Origin: an uncultured Oscillospiraceae bacterium
GTDB lineage: Bacteria; Bacillota; Clostridia; Oscillospirales; Oscillospiraceae
Reading direction: 5' to 3'
DNA length: 64,000 bases
Assembly (NCBI GenBank): GCA_934589705.1
Contig: CAKTOH010000002.1
Coordinates: forward strand, 138,309 to 202,308
In this document: one piece after another, positions 2,626 through 62,746 of the stretch
How the letters are laid out: every line of letters starts with the position of its first letter
Position numbering within the stretch: the first letter of the stretch is position 1
Notes under the pieces: model-generated
What the model was told of the DNA's origin: nothing
The model's database searches: none
What the model saw: only the letters and a program-made list of their open reading frames with translations
Made by a program: the position numbers and the translations under genes

Positions 2626-4806
2626 TTACAGGGTATGATTCTTGATCTTTTGCAGATATTGCCGCAGCTTGCTCACATCCACGGGCTTGGCAATGTGTCC
2701 GTTCATGCCGCTGGCAAGACAGGCCTGCACATCCTCGGCAAAGGCATCCGCCGTCATGGCGACGATGGGAACAGTGCCGTTCTTCCCGGCAGGCAGAGCC
2801 CGAATGCGCCGGGCAGCCTCCAGGCCGGTCATCTCCGGCATCTGCACATCCATCAGGATGGCGTCATAGGTACCGGGCAGCGCGTTGGAGATCACGTCCA
2901 GACAAATCCGGCCGTTCTCTGCCCGCTCGCAGGTATCGCCGCACTCGGCCAGAAGAATCTGAATGATCTCCCAGTTCATGTCGTTGTCCTCGGCCACCAG
3001 CAGGCGCAGACCGCTCACGTCCGCTTCCTGGCTTCCCGTCTCGCCGGTTCGGGTATCCGCCTGCCGGACAATGGGCAGGGACAGCTCCACCGTGAAGGTG
3101 GTTCCCTTGTTCACCTGGCTTTCGCAGTCGATGGTGCCATCCATCAGCTCTACCATCTGCCGGACAATGGACAGTCCCAGGCCGGAGCCCTGGGTCCGGT
3201 TGACCTGAGTGCTCACCTCCCGGGCAAAGGACTGGTACATATGCTTCTGAAACTCCGGGCTCATGCCAATGCCTGTGTCCGAAACCCGGAAGGTCAGGCG
3301 TACCCGGTTTTCGTCCAGCTGCTCTTCCCGGAAGGACATATGGATGCTGCCGCCGGGCGGGGTATATTTGACGGCATTGGACAGCAGATTGATGTAAATC
3401 TGATTCAGCCGGATGGCATCGGCGCTGACCTGGGGACAGGCAAACTCCGGCACGTCATAGGTAAATTTCTGCTCCTTGTCCCGGGCTTGGGGGGTGATGA
3501 TCTCCAGAAGCCCGGAAACCAGCTCCGGCAGGGAGATATCCGTGGGGGTCAGCACAAATTTCCCGCTCTCGATTTTCGAAATATCCAGAACATCGTTGAT
3601 AAGGGTCAGCAGCTGGCGGCCGGCATTGGCGGCCTTATTCAGGCACTGGGCAGCGTACTCCGGGTCATCCAGATTCCGCTGGGCAATGGCCGTCATGCTC
3701 AGCACCGCGTTCATGGGCGTGCGGATGTCGTGGGACATGGCGGACAGGAAATTGGTCTTTGCCTCGCTGGCCTGTCTTGCCAGCCGGGCCGTCTCCCGCA
3801 GCTGCCGGTTGACCCACAGCAGATGCCAGCCGTCCAGAAGCACCAGCACCGTCAGGCTGCCGCAGATGACCAGCACCAGAACCCAGGCACTGTCCTCGGT
3901 CACCAGCTCCGCCTCGGGAAGGAAGCCCACGATATCCAGCATGGAGTCTTCGCCAAAGGAAGAAAAATACCAAAAGCAGTTCTCGCCCCGGAAGTTTTTG
4001 TAATGCAGAGCGCCCAGCTCGCTCCCGTTCAGCTCCTCGGCAAAGTCGTACATCTTATTATAGTTATCCTGGAAATTATAGGCACGGATGTAATTCAGGA
4101 AATTCTCGGATCGCATGGAGGGCGACTGCACCACATATTCCCCCGATCGGGTGATGATGCCCACCTCCGCCGACTGGTACTCTGCCGGGAATACCCAGCT
4201 TTTTTGCAGGGAGTCCGTAGGGATGGCCCGCAGAAGCAGATAGTCTTTGGTGCCGTTCTCCGTCCGGAGGGTCACACGGGCACCTACGCTCACCGCGTTG
4301 GACAGGTTCTCCGAAAGCCGGTATTTGCCCACTACGCTGAATTGAGCCGCGGTGCCGTCGAAAATCTCCCGCATACTGCCGTTCAAGCGCCGCGCATAGT
4401 CGGAGGCATTGTCGGAAAACTTGCCGTAGGTGTCGATCTCCTCCTGCCCCGCCGGATAGTAGGCCGACCAGGCCCGCAGGGTATCCAGATCCACAATGTG
4501 GGCGTAGCGGTTGGGGTTGGTATTGAGCTGCCGCAGAAATTCCAACGCCTGGGGCAGATCCATCTGGTTTTTTGTAATGTAAGCACTCCAGTTTTCCACA
4601 TAGCCCCGCTCACCGTCCAGATAATTCTGGGCAACGGACTTCATGGATTCCACCGTGGCGATGAACTCGTCCCGCTTGTTATTCATCTGCTCCTGGTGGA
4701 GCCGGCTGGCGCAGACCACAGACACCGCCACCGTGAACAGGATCACCAGCAGATTGCAGAGCACCAGCGTGATTTTTCTCTTTCTTCCCATAAAATCGCT
4801 GTGCAA
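2626..4806 (-). CDS. Hybrid sensor histidine kinase with C-terminal receiver
   Basis: This 726-residue membrane kinase senses an extracellular signal and starts a phosphorelay. A first membrane segment (about 12-33) is followed by a roughly 270-residue extracytoplasmic sensor region and a second membrane segment (about 306-326). The HisKA H-box [12 protein letters not shown] places the phospho-accepting His at about 359. The ATPase domain has an N-box ([10 protein letters not shown], about 473-482), a G1 box (SDTGIGM, about 509-515) and a G2 box (GSGLGLSIV, about 540-548). A receiver domain follows with acidic residues in AEDND, the acceptor Asp in ILMDVQMP (about 653) and the conserved Lys at about 707. 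No HPt domain or DNA-binding output is fused, so a partner elsewhere must complete the relay. The solute-binding lipoprotein gene follows in the same operon. Domain calls are firm; the signal is unknown. Confidence 0.93.
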
Positions 4807-4920
4807 TCCTCTTCACCTCCGGTTTCGGCCTGCCGAAAATATAACAGGGCCTTTCACATGATGTTCATTATAGCAGGAATTCTTTTCTTTGTCCACCGGG
4901 GGACGGTTTTTTCCCCTTTT

Positions 4921-5081
4921 GGAACCTCTGAATAAATCGTCTGCGGCTGGATAGCGGATCTTTTTCTCTATCCGTGCAGCTTCAAAAGTGGGCAATACAC
5001 AAAGTATTCCTCCACTTTTGAACCCTTCGGCTAGCGAAAAATCTCTCGCTCCCAGCTCTTGCCGATTTAATCAGAGGTTCC
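4921..5081. repeat. 161-bp structured repeat, copy 1
   Basis: This element has imperfect 19-bp inverted ends (GGAACCTCTGA.TAAATCG against its reverse complement with one mismatch). Inside are three further hairpins: a GGATAG/CTATCC stem closed by CTGC/GCAG, a long CAAAAGTGG/CCACTTTTG stem with an inner AATAC/GTATT stem, and an AGCGA/TCGCT stem. The fold would be a four-way junction. A second copy at 56270-56430 has exactly the same length and 11 substitutions by hand alignment, including a compensatory C-G to G-C swap at positions 5 and 157 of the closing stem. On the plus strand the last stem is followed by six T residues. It encodes no protein. Confidence 0.9.
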
Positions 5082-5085
5082 TTTT

Positions 5086-5637
5086 TTATTCGATCAAAGA
5101 AATTCCGCGGCGTAAGGTATCTTCGTCAATGGCGCCGGTGGCGTAGGTAATGGCGTGACCCTGTCCGTCGATGAAGTAGGTGCTGGGCAGTGCGTTGACC
5201 CCATAGGCCCGGGCAGCGCTGAATTCGGTGTCATAGAACACCGGCAGGGTGTAGCCCGTCTTTTCGAGGAACGCATCCGCCTTTTCCCGGGTTTCCTGCA
5301 TTCCGTCGGTCATGTTCACCATCAGAAACTGGACGTTCTCCCCCATTTCATTGAAAACCCGCTGAAAATCCGGCAGCTCCTGTTTGCAGGGGCCGCACCA
5401 GCTGGCCCAGAAATTCAGCACCACCGGCTTTCCCAGGTAGTCCGAGAGCTTCACCGGATTTCCGTTTCCGTCGTACACCGTAAAATCCGGGGCGGTCACA
5501 TAGTCGCCGGTGGTCTCCTGCGCCAGCTGCTCCGGTGCCGGCTGGTTCCCCCGCAGGCGGCCATAGAGCACCGAGGCCCCGGCCAGAAGTCCCGCCAGCA
5601 AAACCGCCGCAAGCAGCCAAGTCCATTTCCGCTTCAT
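5086..5637 (-). CDS. TlpA-like membrane-anchored thiol-disulfide oxidoreductase
   Basis: This 183-residue protein is a thioredoxin-fold reductase facing the outside of the cell. It has an N-terminal membrane anchor (WLLAAVLLAGLLAGASVLYG, about 6-25), then a TlpA/ResA-type fold with the redox-active WCGPC motif at about 80-84 and the cis-proline region in NALPSTYFID. Its start codon overlaps the stop of ccdA (ATGA), so both are translated from one message. CcdA would pass electrons across the membrane and this protein would use them to reduce disulfides in exported proteins. A cytochrome c maturation role is less likely because no cytochrome genes are nearby. Confidence 0.9.
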   Translation of the reverse strand: MKRKWTWLLAAVLLAGLLAGASVLYGRLRGNQPAPEQLAQETTGDYVTAPDFTVYDGNGNPVKLSDYLGKPVVLNFWASWCGPCKQELPDFQRVFNEMGENVQFLMVNMTDGMQETREKADAFLEKTGYTLPVFYDTEFSAARAYGVNALPSTYFIDGQGHAITYATGAIDEDTLRRGISLIE

Positions 5638-18982: not shown

Positions 18983-19056
18983 CTGTCATTGCGAACCAGC
19001 CCTGTTAGACGCATGTCATTGCGAACCAGCGCGCACGCTGGTGTGGCAATCCCCCG
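18983..19056. repeat. Two half-copies of the GTCATTGCGAACCAG repeat
   Basis: Two direct half-copies of the left arm of the 226-bp nested repeat family stand in tandem here: GTCATTGCGAACCAG twice, the second with its GCTGGTGTGGCAATCC fold-back. Full copies are at 36157 and 61652. Confidence 0.75.
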
Positions 19057-19087
19057 GTCATTCCAGAAGCCAACGTCGGAGCGCAAA

Positions 19088-19244
19088 GGCTCCCTTGTGT
19101 AAAGGGAGCTGGCAAAAATCTCTGATTTTTGACTGAGGGATTGTAAAACTGCGTCAATGAGAGTACACAAAAAGCTGGGGGTTCTGATCCCCTCAGCCCC
19201 AGTGTGCGCACTGGGGCAGCTCCCCTTGGTCAGCAAGGGGAGCC
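19088..19244. repeat. Inverted repeat element GGCTCCCTTG...CAAGGGGAGCC, copy 1
   Basis: This 157-bp element has outer inverted ends (GGCTCCCTTG/CAAGGGGAGCC) and nested stems (AAAATCTCTGATTTTT-type hairpin, CTGAGGGAT against ATCCCCTCAG, and CCCCAGTG/CACTGGGG). A second copy with the same order is at 23600-23765. It has no coding capacity and fits a MITE-like or palindromic intergenic repeat. With the repeats on both sides it fills the gap between the mutase and surface-protein genes. Confidence 0.8.
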
Positions 19245-19248
19245 TTGC

Positions 19249-23516: not shown

Positions 23517-23599
23517 AAACTGTCAAAAAACGAGTATGGTACAATTTTCCGTTTCTTCTGAGAAACATCGATGAACGCACTGGTGCGGGAGCACCCAAC

Positions 23600-23765
23600 G
23601 GCTCCCTTGTGTAAAGGGAGCTGGCAAAAATCTTTGATTTTTGACTGAGGGATTGTCAAACCGCGCTTTATTGAGAGTACCCAGAAAAGTAGGAGTTCTG
23701 ATCCCCTCAGTCATGGCCTTGCGGGAGGCGGCCATGACAGCTCCCCTTGATCAGCAAGGGGAGCC
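23600..23765. repeat. Inverted repeat element GGCTCCCTTG...CAAGGGGAGCC, copy 2
   Basis: The second copy of the element at 19088-19244, with the same order of nested stems. Here the innermost stem is GTCATGGCC/GGCCATGAC in place of CCCCAGTG/CACTGGGG, so the tip hairpin has been exchanged while its pairing is kept. Confidence 0.8.
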
Positions 23766-23885
23766 TTTTGCCCCCCTTTACACAAGGGGGGCTTTGCGCC
23801 TCGCCGGGAAGTATTCTGTAACTTGGATGGGATTTCCACACCACTTAACCACCGGTTCGCAAAGGCAATGTGTTTTGCGGACTTT

Positions 23886-29916: not shown

Positions 29917-29952
29917 GAATTTGAGAAATAGCGCACTCCCTTAATAGAAGGT

Positions 29953-30202
29953 GTCATTGCGAACCAGTGACCGATGTCACTGGTGTGGCAATCCGTTTCC
30001 CCCTTGGCTCCCACTCTGGGGGAGCTGTCACGAAGTGACTGAGAGGGCAAAAAAACCCTCTCCGCCCCTTCCAGGGGCACCTCTCCCATAGGGAGAGGCA
30101 AGTGGCCCCCATCCGTCACGGCTGCGCCGTGCCACCTTCTCCGGAGGGGAAGGCCTTGGTTTGCGGATTGCCACGCCAGTGTGAGCACTGGCTCGCAATG
30201 AC
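29953..30202. repeat. Composite repeat: GTCATTGCGAACC arms enclosing other repeats
   Basis: The outer arms (GTCATTGCGAACCAGTG at 29953 and CACTGGCTCGCAATGAC ending at 30202) are those of the inner part of the 226-bp family. The centre is different: a GGCTCCCACTC.../GGGGGAGC unit, a CTCTCCCATAGGGAGAG hairpin and, from 30106, a CTCATCC/CTTCCC hairpin repeat. It looks like one repeat inserted into another and fills the whole asnS-folC gap. Confidence 0.8.
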
Positions 30203-32485: not shown

Positions 32486-32590
32486 GCAACAGCGGGTGCG
32501 GTGACCCCATCGTGGAATGCGTATCCTTCGTCCTCCGGGCAACTCCCCGTCCCGGTGGCACTTAACGCGAGGTCTCCTACTCTGTTCGCC
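32486..32590 (-). promoter_or_regulatory. Tetrahydrofolate (THF) riboswitch aptamer
   Basis: The minus strand shows the class signatures AGAGTAG, CGCGTTAAGTG, GGACGAAGG and CACCGCACCCGCTG in the right order. GACCTC pairs with GGGGTC as P2 and AACAG with CTGTT as P1. It lies directly after the promoter and upstream of folT-folC, the usual targets. Binding of reduced folate should favour the terminator at 32305-32340. Confidence 0.85.
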
Positions 32591-36156: not shown

Positions 36157-36382
36157 GGGGTTGTCTCGTTAAGAGCCCCTATGGGTCAACATAGCCAAAA
36201 TATACAATGTCATTGCGAACCAGTGACCGATGTCACTGGTGTGGCAATCCCCCGGATAGGCGTAAAATCCAAGATTTCCTAACGTAGATGTTTGAAAATC
36301 GGGGGGATTGCCACGCCAGTGTGAGCACTGGCTCGCAATGACTTTGTTCTATTTGGGCACTTTGCTATTTTGAGACAGCTCC
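36157..36382. repeat. 226-bp nested inverted-repeat element, copy 1
   Basis: The outer ends are GGGGTTGTCTC and GAGACAGCTCC (two mismatches as inverted repeats). About 50 bases in, a second pair of arms begins with GTCATTGCGAACCAGTG and ends with CACTGGCTCGCAATGAC. A copy of identical length is at 61652-61877, with the shared motif CTATTTGGGCACTTTG near the right end of both. It carries no gene. It begins ten bases after the YbaK-type gene. Confidence 0.9.
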
Positions 36383-56265: not shown

Positions 56266-56269
56266 CTAA

Positions 56270-56430
56270 GGAAGCTCTGAATAAATCGTCTGCGGCTGGA
56301 TAGCGGATCTTTTTCCCTATCCGTGCAGCTTCAAAAGTGGGAAATACATACAGTATTCCTCCACTTTTGATCTCTTCGGCTAGAGAAAAAACTCTCGCTA
56401 CCAGCTCTTGCCGATTTAATCAGAGCTTCC
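56270..56430. repeat. 161-bp structured repeat, copy 2
   Basis: Same length and layout as 4921-5081. The closing stem reads GGAAGCTCTGA...TCAGAGCTTCC, where copy 1 has GGAACC...GGTTCC: both partners of one base pair have changed. The long CAAAAGTGG/CCACTTTTG stem is identical. In the third hairpin the pairing has shifted to GAGA/TCTC. It lies directly upstream of the rfbA promoter. Confidence 0.9.
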
Positions 56431-56449
56431 CTAATTTCGGAAATCACGG

Positions 56450-56529: not shown

Positions 56530-57435
56530 ATGAAGGGTATCATTCTGGCCGGTGGCTCCGGCACCCGGCTGTATCCGCTGACAAAGGTCACCTCCAAGCA
56601 ATTGCTCCCGGTTTACGACAAACCTATGATCTACTATCCCCTGTCCACACTGATGCTGGCGGGAATTCGGGACATTCTGATTATTTCCACCCCCACGGAC
56701 ACCCCCCGCTTCCGGGAGCTTCTGGGAGACGGCAGCCATTTCGGCATTCACCTGAGCTACGCCGTTCAGCCCAGCCCGGATGGTCTGGCTCAGGCCTTCC
56801 TCATCGGCGAGGAATTCATCGGCGATGAGCCCTGCGCCATGGTGTTGGGGGACAACATTTTCTACGGCAGCGGCTTCTCCGGCATTCTGCGCGATGCCCG
56901 GGCAAACGCGGAAAATGGCCGCGCTACCATCTTCGGCTACTATGTCCCCGACCCGGAACGGTTCGGCGTGGTGGAGTTTGACGAAAACAAGAAGGTCATC
57001 TCCCTGGAGGAAAAGCCCGCCCAGCCCAAGAGCAACTACGCCGTCACCGGTCTGTACTTCTACCCCTCCGGGGTCTCCGCAAAAGCCAAGGAAGTGAAGC
57101 CTTCCAAGCGGGGTGAGCTGGAAATCACCACACTCAACGGCATGTACCTGGAACAGGACATTCTGGATGTGAAGCTGCTGGGCCGGGGCTTTGCCTGGCT
57201 GGACACCGGCACCATGGAAAGCCTGCTGGAGGCGGCGGAGTTCGTCCACATGGTGGAAAAACGCCAGGGCGTGAAGATCTCCGCCCCGGAGGAAATCGCC
57301 TTCCGTTATGGCTGGATTTCCAAAGAGGAGCTGCTGGAATCCGCCCAGGCCTACGGCAAGTCTCCCTACGGGCACCATCTGCAGCAGGTCGCCAATGACA
57401 AGTTTATCAGCTTCCGGGAAAATCAAAAGAATTGA
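56530..57435 (+). CDS. rfbA: Glucose-1-phosphate thymidylyltransferase
   Basis: This 301-residue enzyme makes dTDP-glucose from glucose 1-phosphate and dTTP, the first step to dTDP-rhamnose. The nucleotide motif [48 protein letters not shown] and [18 protein letters not shown] are all present; length is typical. The ATG at 56530 has AAAAGGAGA nine bases upstream. It opens a five-gene operon rfbA-rfbB-GT61-rfbC-GT61 with small gaps. Confidence 0.97.
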
Positions 57436-61688: not shown

Positions 61689-61877
61689 TCAAAAAGAAGC
61701 TGTCATTGCGAACCAGTGACCGACGTCACTGGTGTGGCAATCTCCCGGATAGGAGTAAAACCCCCGATTTTTGGACGTAATTGTTCGGAAATCTATGGGG
61801 ATTGCCACACCACTTAAGCGGACTGGTTCGCAATGACAGTTCTTCTATTTGGGCACTTTGTCTTTTTGAGACAGCCC
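61652..61877. repeat. 226-bp nested inverted-repeat element, copy 2
   Basis: The outer ends are a perfect 10-bp inverted repeat (GGGCTGTCTC/GAGACAGCCC). The inner arms start with GTCATTGCGAACCAGTG and end with GGTTCGCAATGAC. It overlaps the last 12 codons of the GT61 gene (stop included) and ends six bases before the stop of the converging gene at 61884. Copy 1 is at 36157-36382. Confidence 0.9.
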
Positions 61878-62554: not shown

Positions 62555-62582
62555 CGTGTTTTACATTTTTCATGAAAAGAAA

Positions 62583-62746
62583 GCTGTCATTGAGAGCCAG
62601 TAGGGTTTCACAGTGGTGTGGAACTCCATCCAAAAAAGAGACGGATTGCCACACCAGTGCTGCGCTACACTAAGGTATGACTGCCACTGGCAGTCATGAT
62701 AATCTTAGATTCGCTGCGCGGAGCACCACTGGTTCGCAATGACAGC
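62583..62746. repeat. Degenerate GCTGTCATTG...CAATGACAGC element
   Basis: This 164-bp diverged relative of the inner part of the 226-bp family has ends GCTGTCATTG and CAATGACAGC. A second palindrome (TGACTGCCA/TGGCAGTCA near 62679-62696) sits inside its right arm, as if another small repeat had inserted there. Confidence 0.7.

Follow-up and report, generated by a model that had tools for sequence, protein, structure and literature searches.

ERIC and bcr1 appear to be the closest known kinds of element to the hairpin family described here. ERIC, as described in PMC2267715 and PMC10969869, forms a single long stem-loop and has effects at the RNA level on neighboring genes. By description, ERIC/IRU elements are set apart from the present family by their hosts (Enterobacteriaceae and Vibrionaceae) and their length; the present family has ends and a target that match those of IS5-family insertion sequences (ISs), carries two kinds of ends on related cores, and keeps its fold across an order. 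The bcr1-bcr3 repeats of the Bacillus cereus group are described as MITE-like and often located in UTRs; copies of all 18 bcr families taken together were found in transcripts in 84 of 165 and 62 of 155 cases in two strains, bcr10 and bcr18 are conserved in structure, and, among the B. cereus repeats that the source discusses, only bcr3 correlated with mRNA decay (PMC3446304). Repeats bcr1-bcr18 differ from the present family in genus. We know of no IS5 ends that the bcr repeats and the present family have in common. Correia/NEMIS elements of Neisseria are likewise small and mobile, and RNase III cuts their transcripts, as summarized in PMC10969869. There the cut falls at the terminal repeats, whereas the covarying part of the present family is the core. 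IS5-family MITEs have IS5-like ends, a 4-bp duplication of the YTAR type, and a transposase supplied in trans, as the present family seems to have. In the account of PMC10969869, MITEs are mostly viewed as remnants of one IS. The present family differs from IS5-family MITEs in that its interior has no clear similarity to the ISs compared (six) and is conserved apart from its ends. Searches of the open-licence literature found no paper on this hairpin family, and the apparent novelty lies in a fold that is retained throughout an order and on more than one kind of terminal repeat.

We analyzed a 64,000-nucleotide stretch of DNA from an uncultured Oscillospiraceae bacterium (the window). The original prediction had pointed to two 161-bp copies of a structured repeat that differ by 11 substitutions and no indels. 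Our alignment agrees: the copies align over 161 bp with 0 gaps, 11 differences, and 93.168% identity, and a repeat search of the window recovered them as a two-copy 161-nt direct repeat. The imperfect inverted repeats that had been described at the ends were seen in both copies. The features of the two copies are as follows.

4921..5081, minus strand: copy 1, 161 bp (the strand is the one with the more stable fold)
56270..56430, minus strand: copy 2, 161 bp, 93.2% identical to copy 1
4917..4920, no strand: left target-site duplication of copy 1, TTTT (low complexity, weak alone)
5082..5085, no strand: right target-site duplication of copy 1, TTTT
56266..56269, no strand: left target-site duplication of copy 2, CTAA (YTAR)
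56431..56434, no strand: right target-site duplication of copy 2, CTAA
4921..4938, plus strand: left terminal repeat of copy 1, GGAACCTCTGAATAAATC; its outer 17 bases equal the right end of a 1217-bp IS5-family element (L267)
5060..5081, minus strand: right terminal repeat of copy 1, GGAACCTCTGATTAAATCGG on the minus strand; 20 of 22 bases equal the left end of the same IS (L267)
56270..56287, plus strand: left terminal repeat of copy 2
56411..56430, minus strand: right terminal repeat of copy 2
4954..5048, minus strand: structured core of copy 1, with covarying stems, fixed internal loops, and an apical hairpin (limits approximate)
56303..56397, minus strand: structured core of copy 2 (limits approximate)

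The window holds other dispersed repeats. One, TGTCATTGCGAACCAGTG...GTGGCAATCC, lies in both orientations at 29943-29994, 36199-36250, 61692-61743, and 62576-62627, where it is 67 to 92% alike to the reference over 52 nt, and further places are at 19009-19052, 30165-30202, and 36305-36342. A repeat block with GGCTCCCTTGTGTAAAGGGAGC followed by a CAGCTCCCCTTG hairpin lies at 19084-19246 and 23596-23767 (80 to 97% alike by segment).

The original prediction had described a closing stem with three separate hairpins. The minimum-energy fold is instead a single long interrupted hairpin that spans the whole element, in both copies and on both strands. Free energies were -74.3 and -76.7 kcal/mol on the plus strand and -86.3 and -89.1 kcal/mol on the minus strand, with z values from -9.7 to -12.0, and in each case 0 of 200 shuffled sequences were equally stable. 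Covariation in a wider alignment, an Rfam search, a covariance-model search of Oscillospirales, and a search for target-site duplications and empty sites had been proposed as checks, and all were carried out.

A scan of contigs with 20 set bases of the left end gave at least 120 stretches, and the family consists of dispersed elements of ~160 bp in Oscillospiraceae and relatives. The hosts of the listed stretches, mostly metagenome-assembled genomes (MAGs), are Faecousia, Pseudoflavonifractor, and other Oscillospiraceae, Clostridia, or Eubacteriales. Each of eight genomes searched by BLAST had 13 to 45 matches; these genomes had been chosen as carriers of the element, partial matches were counted, and at most 40 candidates were scored. 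Within the family of genome G001, 17 of 150 genomes had DNA matches. The covariance model, R1, matched in 67 of 295 genomes of the order, a count in which some places are listed on both strands and in which partial matches in G253, G295, and G370 may represent other hairpins. In each of these three genomes several places match only at model positions ~25 to 137, and these may be either copies of some unrelated repeat or cores that lack IS5 ends. Copy 2 had no match in phage and plasmid collections, so carriage by phages or plasmids was rejected within the collections queried; two viral contigs that bear the short pattern were taken as chance.

Lengths are tightly grouped: of 137 unique sequences found between paired ends and containing at least one core motif, 109 are 157 to 162 bp, and the remainder comprises deletion forms, a few longer sequences, and some cases in which the ends were spuriously paired. 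Distant members from the order-wide search (26 loci) are 149 to 162 nt, and in L228, L231, L235, and L237 nearly all of the end sequence has changed while the pairing is retained. Several genomes contain 78-bp short forms that keep the ends and outer stem and have lost the inner hairpin (L060:7697-7774, L082:3834-3911, L113:6465-6542, L166:1403-1480, and L179:2575-2652); no exact 4-bp duplication borders any of these five. Three further forms were observed: a 71-bp element with a GATTTA-type end of the type I IS, a simpler MITE beside a full element (L108:2227-2297); a 219-bp member with additional hairpin-like sequence in the apical region (L021:3319-3537); and a 157-nt hairpin that differs in its ends and in most of its sequence but retains the apical CATACATACAGTATGGCTGC motif (L062:6881-7037).

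An exact 4-bp duplication borders 70 of the 101 copies that have both flanks, among 105 copies extracted by BLAST, and 1,000 re-pairings of the flanks gave a mean of 16.6 and a largest value of 27. None of the duplications in the 101 copies reaches 5 bp. The sequence is CTAA in 33, TTAG in 9, and TTAA in 7, and CTAA, TTAG, TTAA, and CTAG account for 51 of the 70. YTAR is the 4-bp target of IS5; the TTTT duplication of window copy 1 departs from it. For the distant members, exact duplications were found in 5 of 26, and a later search found 11 of 22. Joined flanks (137 queries) compared with the fetched loci gave eight spanning matches, two of which are clear empty sites. In the first, L035 and L104 align at 94% over 481 bp; in the second, L129 has two elements where L089 has one, and the two loci align at 98% over 506 bp. 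The spanning match of L165 to L101 gave no clean empty-site alignment and was left uncounted. With the flanks of window copy 1, 26 of 136 genomes matched, nearly all on the right flank only, and none across the junction. From the target duplications and the two empty sites, we conclude that the family is mobile. Hairpin elements of the IS200/IS605 type transpose as single strands without target duplication, and the duplications in 70 of 101 copies do not fit such an element. The element had been presented as something other than a decaying MITE. The family nonetheless behaves as a MITE: it has terminal repeats in common with autonomous IS5-family elements, 4-bp duplications of the YTAR type, empty sites, and amplified copies.

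Protein searches identified three ISs with the same (type I) ends as the hairpin, at loci L266, L267, and L268. Each is exactly 1217 bp, and two of the three have exact duplications. The ends of the L267 IS are GGAACCTCTGATTTAATCCGC and GGAACCTCTGAATAAATG, and those of L266 and L268 are similar. The L266 and L267 transposases score 313 and 300 bits against the NCBIfam IS5-family (IS5_4) model NF033581 (cut-off 140), and the L268 transposase, outside that scoring, is a 47% match to the query transposase. The two ends of the hairpin differ from each other as the two IS ends do (GAATAAAT versus GATT), a difference that would account for the A-A mismatch seen at pair 12 in 67 of 105 copies. Searches with the protein families DDE_Tnp_1 and DUF772 did not find an IS with type I ends. 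They found IS5-family elements of 1133 to 1150 bp with ends GGCANYACCGCACA and duplications CTAA and TTAG (L154 and L191); the L154 transposase scores 331 bits against the IS5_4 model. When 300 genomes were searched with the transposase of this other-ended IS, 49 had matches.

Similarity between hairpin and IS is concentrated at the ends. The best matches of 63 representative hairpins to six ISs lie at the ends (best E, 5.9e-6) and are limited to the outer ~25 bp (17 to 25 bp); the best interior match in the same comparison was 20 bp, with an E value of 0.003 in a tiny database. A remnant of its IS left by internal deletion was considered and set aside, and the core has no clear origin in those ISs. 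The type I ISs are in genomes G613, G562, and G594, where the covariance model matched at no place, one place, and no place, respectively, and DDE_Tnp_1 had no match in the element-rich genomes G001, G002, and G005. MAGs often lose multicopy insertion sequences. The assignment of the type I partner is therefore drawn from matching ends and target, not from co-occurrence. The second-kind IS at L191 is in a genome (G202) that also contains both kinds of element, and five of the six second-kind elements listed there have exact duplications. Genome G004 holds the second-kind IS at L154, and no second-kind element was noticed there incidentally. Judging from the matching ends and target, the family is almost certainly mobilized by an IS5 transposase, and it seems to use such transposases in trans.

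Two kinds of ends, GGAANCTCTGAATAAATC and GGCANNACCGCACAA, are found on related cores in the same contigs, and each matches a different autonomous IS, the second terminal repeat, GGCANNACCGCACAA, corresponding to a different IS5 insertion sequence. Second-kind elements share contigs with full first-kind elements at L053, L094, L062, L034, and L124, and at L113 a second-kind element lies beside a 78-bp short form. All six second-kind elements of these loci have exact duplications; L053:3161-3310 and L212 have none, and L212, which is cut by the contig end, was excluded from the type II count. In a tree of cores, second-kind elements fall into six separate groups. Nodes that unite second-kind and first-kind cores have support of 0.956, 0.921, and 0.891, and 0.25 to 0.76 elsewhere. 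Cores that are 87 to 89% identical can carry ends that are only 55% identical. The ends may have been exchanged by recombination, or they may have changed in step. Two 164-nt members, beginning at position 1501 of L294 and L298, have ends of another sequence, AGAAGCTGTATTCA, and the L298 member lies inside a TATA/TATA duplication; there may thus be a third kind of ends in genome G590.

To analyze the core, we aligned 63 representatives that are <95% identical (alignment A2), drawn from 110 unique elements of 154 to 165 bp; only forms within that length range were used, and the alignment was made on sequence alone (MAFFT). The consensus structure has 61 pairs, of which 41 have changes on both sides. 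Of the cells at these pairs, 92.9% pair, compared with 34.4 to 48.6% after the partner is shifted by one to three columns, and 423 cells are changed on both sides, compared with 56 to 116 for shifted partners. As a null of our own making, distinct from R-scape, we simulated columns independently on a FastTree tree 300 times. The observed covariation sum is 7.25, against a null mean of 0.46 and a maximum of 0.84. All simulations were exceeded by 19 of the 61 pairs (score >0.05); among the 22 pairs with 5 or more changes in each column, 17 did so. A shorter consensus fold from the same alignment has 28 pairs, 25 with compensatory changes. A single hairpin loop is predicted for 60 of 63 representatives on the plus strand and 62 of 63 on the minus strand, and for 21 and 25, respectively, of the 26 distant members. 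Covariation lies mostly within the core, about 30 to 80 bp from the ends. The pairing and the covariation above the tree-based null support the claim of selection on structure in the original prediction, and the core is very probably selected for its fold.

The evidence first offered for that claim does not carry it. The swap of C5-G157 for G5-C157 is present between the window copies, and pair 5-157 had been put forward as a compensatory change. Over 105 copies, the pair is A-C in 37, C-C in 18, C-T in 15, and Watson-Crick in only 23, so the swap is no evidence for selected pairing. Position 5 is the sole free position of the terminal repeat. That pair 5-157 is free and that the outer pairs vary little would suit an ordinary decaying MITE, in which the ends pair as terminal repeats and the remaining sequence has drifted from a single ancestral palindrome; such a MITE would also have the terminal repeats, target duplications, and empty sites seen here. 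We nevertheless consider this explanation very improbable: the covariation sum of the core exceeds every tree simulation, distant members with largely different sequence still form one hairpin, and lengths stay within narrow limits.

Complementary arms could also arise without selection if replication or repair copied one arm onto the other. Such quasi-palindrome correction is known in palindromes and would generate paired swaps. Some facing columns that are unpaired in the model do pair above expectation, as arm copying would predict: in the middle stem, four of them, two of which count as paired on the minus strand, pair somewhat more often (0.35 to 0.49 versus 0.17 to 0.41), and individual values include 0.43 versus 0.25 for 50-117, 0.35 versus 0.17 for 53-114, and 0.47 versus 0.35 for 54-113. 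However, T-T, C-C, T-C, and C-T oppositions persist uncorrected at set positions between good stems. Column pair 5-161, which is free to vary on both sides, pairs in 0.29 of rows versus 0.19 expected; the mean for 21 variable paired columns is 0.85 versus 0.48 expected. Because the fixed mismatches persist, arm-to-arm copying is a poor explanation, and we regard it as improbable; selection on a fold whose internal loops are set remains the better fit.

No Rfam covariance model matched at the element in the window, where the best E value was 0.2, around copy 2, at a permissive threshold, and across 20 further loci the only match was a tRNA away from the element. A known Rfam RNA family was therefore rejected, in line with the earlier remark that no named family with this sequence was known. 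Elsewhere in the window, a THF riboswitch (RF01831, 89 bits) lies at 32488-32586 on the minus strand.

Coding offers another possible basis for selection, with the element encoding a small peptide or an in-frame insert in proteins. At least one frame is open over 53 codons in 46 of 63 representatives, and 161 plus 4 bp is a multiple of 3, but any single frame is open in at most 33 of 63, variability shows no clear 3-base periodicity (44 members of 161 bp), and distant members have other lengths. We rejected a coding function, which we find scarcely credible.

The minus strand, opposite to the orientation first described, is the more stable in 63 of 63 representatives and 26 of 26 distant members, by about 16 kcal/mol on average. 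With DNA parameters the minus strand is likewise more stable, in 62 of 63 and 26 of 26, and stability alone thus does not indicate RNA. On the tree, A-C mismatches on the plus strand (wobble pairs on the minus strand) arose 125 times, G-T 68 times, and others 152 times, the list of pairs being a union that includes pairs predicted only on the minus strand. The A-C excess is mainly in the middle stem (45 versus 5 G-T) and is reversed in the outer stem (23 versus 31 G-T). The core might be selected as DNA, for instance as an extruded hairpin that serves transposition, replication, or tolerance by the host. No single-strand wobble preference extends across all stems, copies lie in all orientations to genes, and DNA parameters reproduce the strand difference, all of which agree with selection on DNA. 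On the other side, internal-deletion forms of 121 to 139 bp have exact duplications, so the whole core may be dispensable for insertion; this argument is weak, as the deletions may postdate insertion. We consider selection at the DNA level unlikely. With modest confidence, we place the function of the core at the RNA level, and we lean toward the RNA rather than the DNA reading.

The genes beside the window copies are as follows.

2626..4806, minus strand: hybrid sensor histidine kinase gene by copy 1 (NCBIfam matches listed are below cut-offs)
5086..5637, minus strand: ResA/TlpA-like thiol-disulfide oxidoreductase gene by copy 1 (NCBIfam matches below cut-offs)
56530..57435, plus strand: rfbA, glucose-1-phosphate thymidylyltransferase, by copy 2 (TIGR01207, 470 bits, above cut-off; frame from 56497)

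Copy 1 sits between the stop codon of the oxidoreductase-like gene, which abuts its target duplication, and the histidine kinase gene; copy 2 is ~100 bp upstream of the rfbA ATG. Promoter-like sites, as matches to the consensus only, start 25 bp past copy 1 and 19 bp past copy 2 on the side of the downstream gene. The original prediction had placed the copies upstream of surface- or signal-related genes. Family-wide, this does not hold: among 192 neighbors of 96 intergenic elements, called with a hexamer-scored home-made gene caller, 113 face the element with their 3′ end and 79 with their 5′ end. Enough flank was available for 116 elements, of which 19 overlap a predicted gene, 1 has no neighbor on one side, and 96 were counted; an earlier, cruder caller had placed 44 of 102 elements over open reading frames and was superseded. 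The 96 comprise 38 between tandem genes that run along the plus strand, 17 between tandem genes along the minus strand, 29 between converging genes, and 12 between diverging genes, compared with 171 tandem, 61 converging, and 60 diverging among background gaps that measure 60 bp or more and come from the same loci. The element tends to be scarce in promoter-to-promoter gaps. Between tandem genes, the genes read the plus (less stable) strand in 38 of 55 cases (two-sided P = 0.006). This bias fits either purifying selection against a stable hairpin in messages or a function of the plus strand.

We favor, and consider likely, a non-autonomous IS5-type element (MITE) with two separable parts and a core selected for its fold, perhaps as RNA. 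The outer ~20 bp would be terminal repeats for an IS5-family transposase acting in trans, which would insert the element at YTAR-like 4-bp targets, and the inner ~100 bp would form the structured core. The core, produced by read-through from a neighboring promoter, would be selected as a folded RNA and would act on the transcript that carries it as a hairpin that is protected, processed, or bound by protein; such action would make insertions tolerated or useful. A bolder reading, which we hold tentatively and think rather doubtful, is that the fold itself is the conserved entity: a parasite of transposons resembling a structured RNA gene, which would switch its terminal repeats among IS5-family transposases and have, across the order, a selected RNA function of its own that benefits either the host or the spread of the core.

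The usual view of small mobile hairpins is that they are IS debris. The ends of this element act like transposase sites, with sequence kept and pairing unneeded at column pair 5-161, and the core of the same element acts like a structural RNA, with pairing kept, sequence free, and related cores carrying different ends. If the core is functional, the family would represent a route by which transposition spreads bacterial regulatory RNA. Some genomes carry tens of copies, and at that number the family could shape transcripts in gut bacteria for which there is little genetics.
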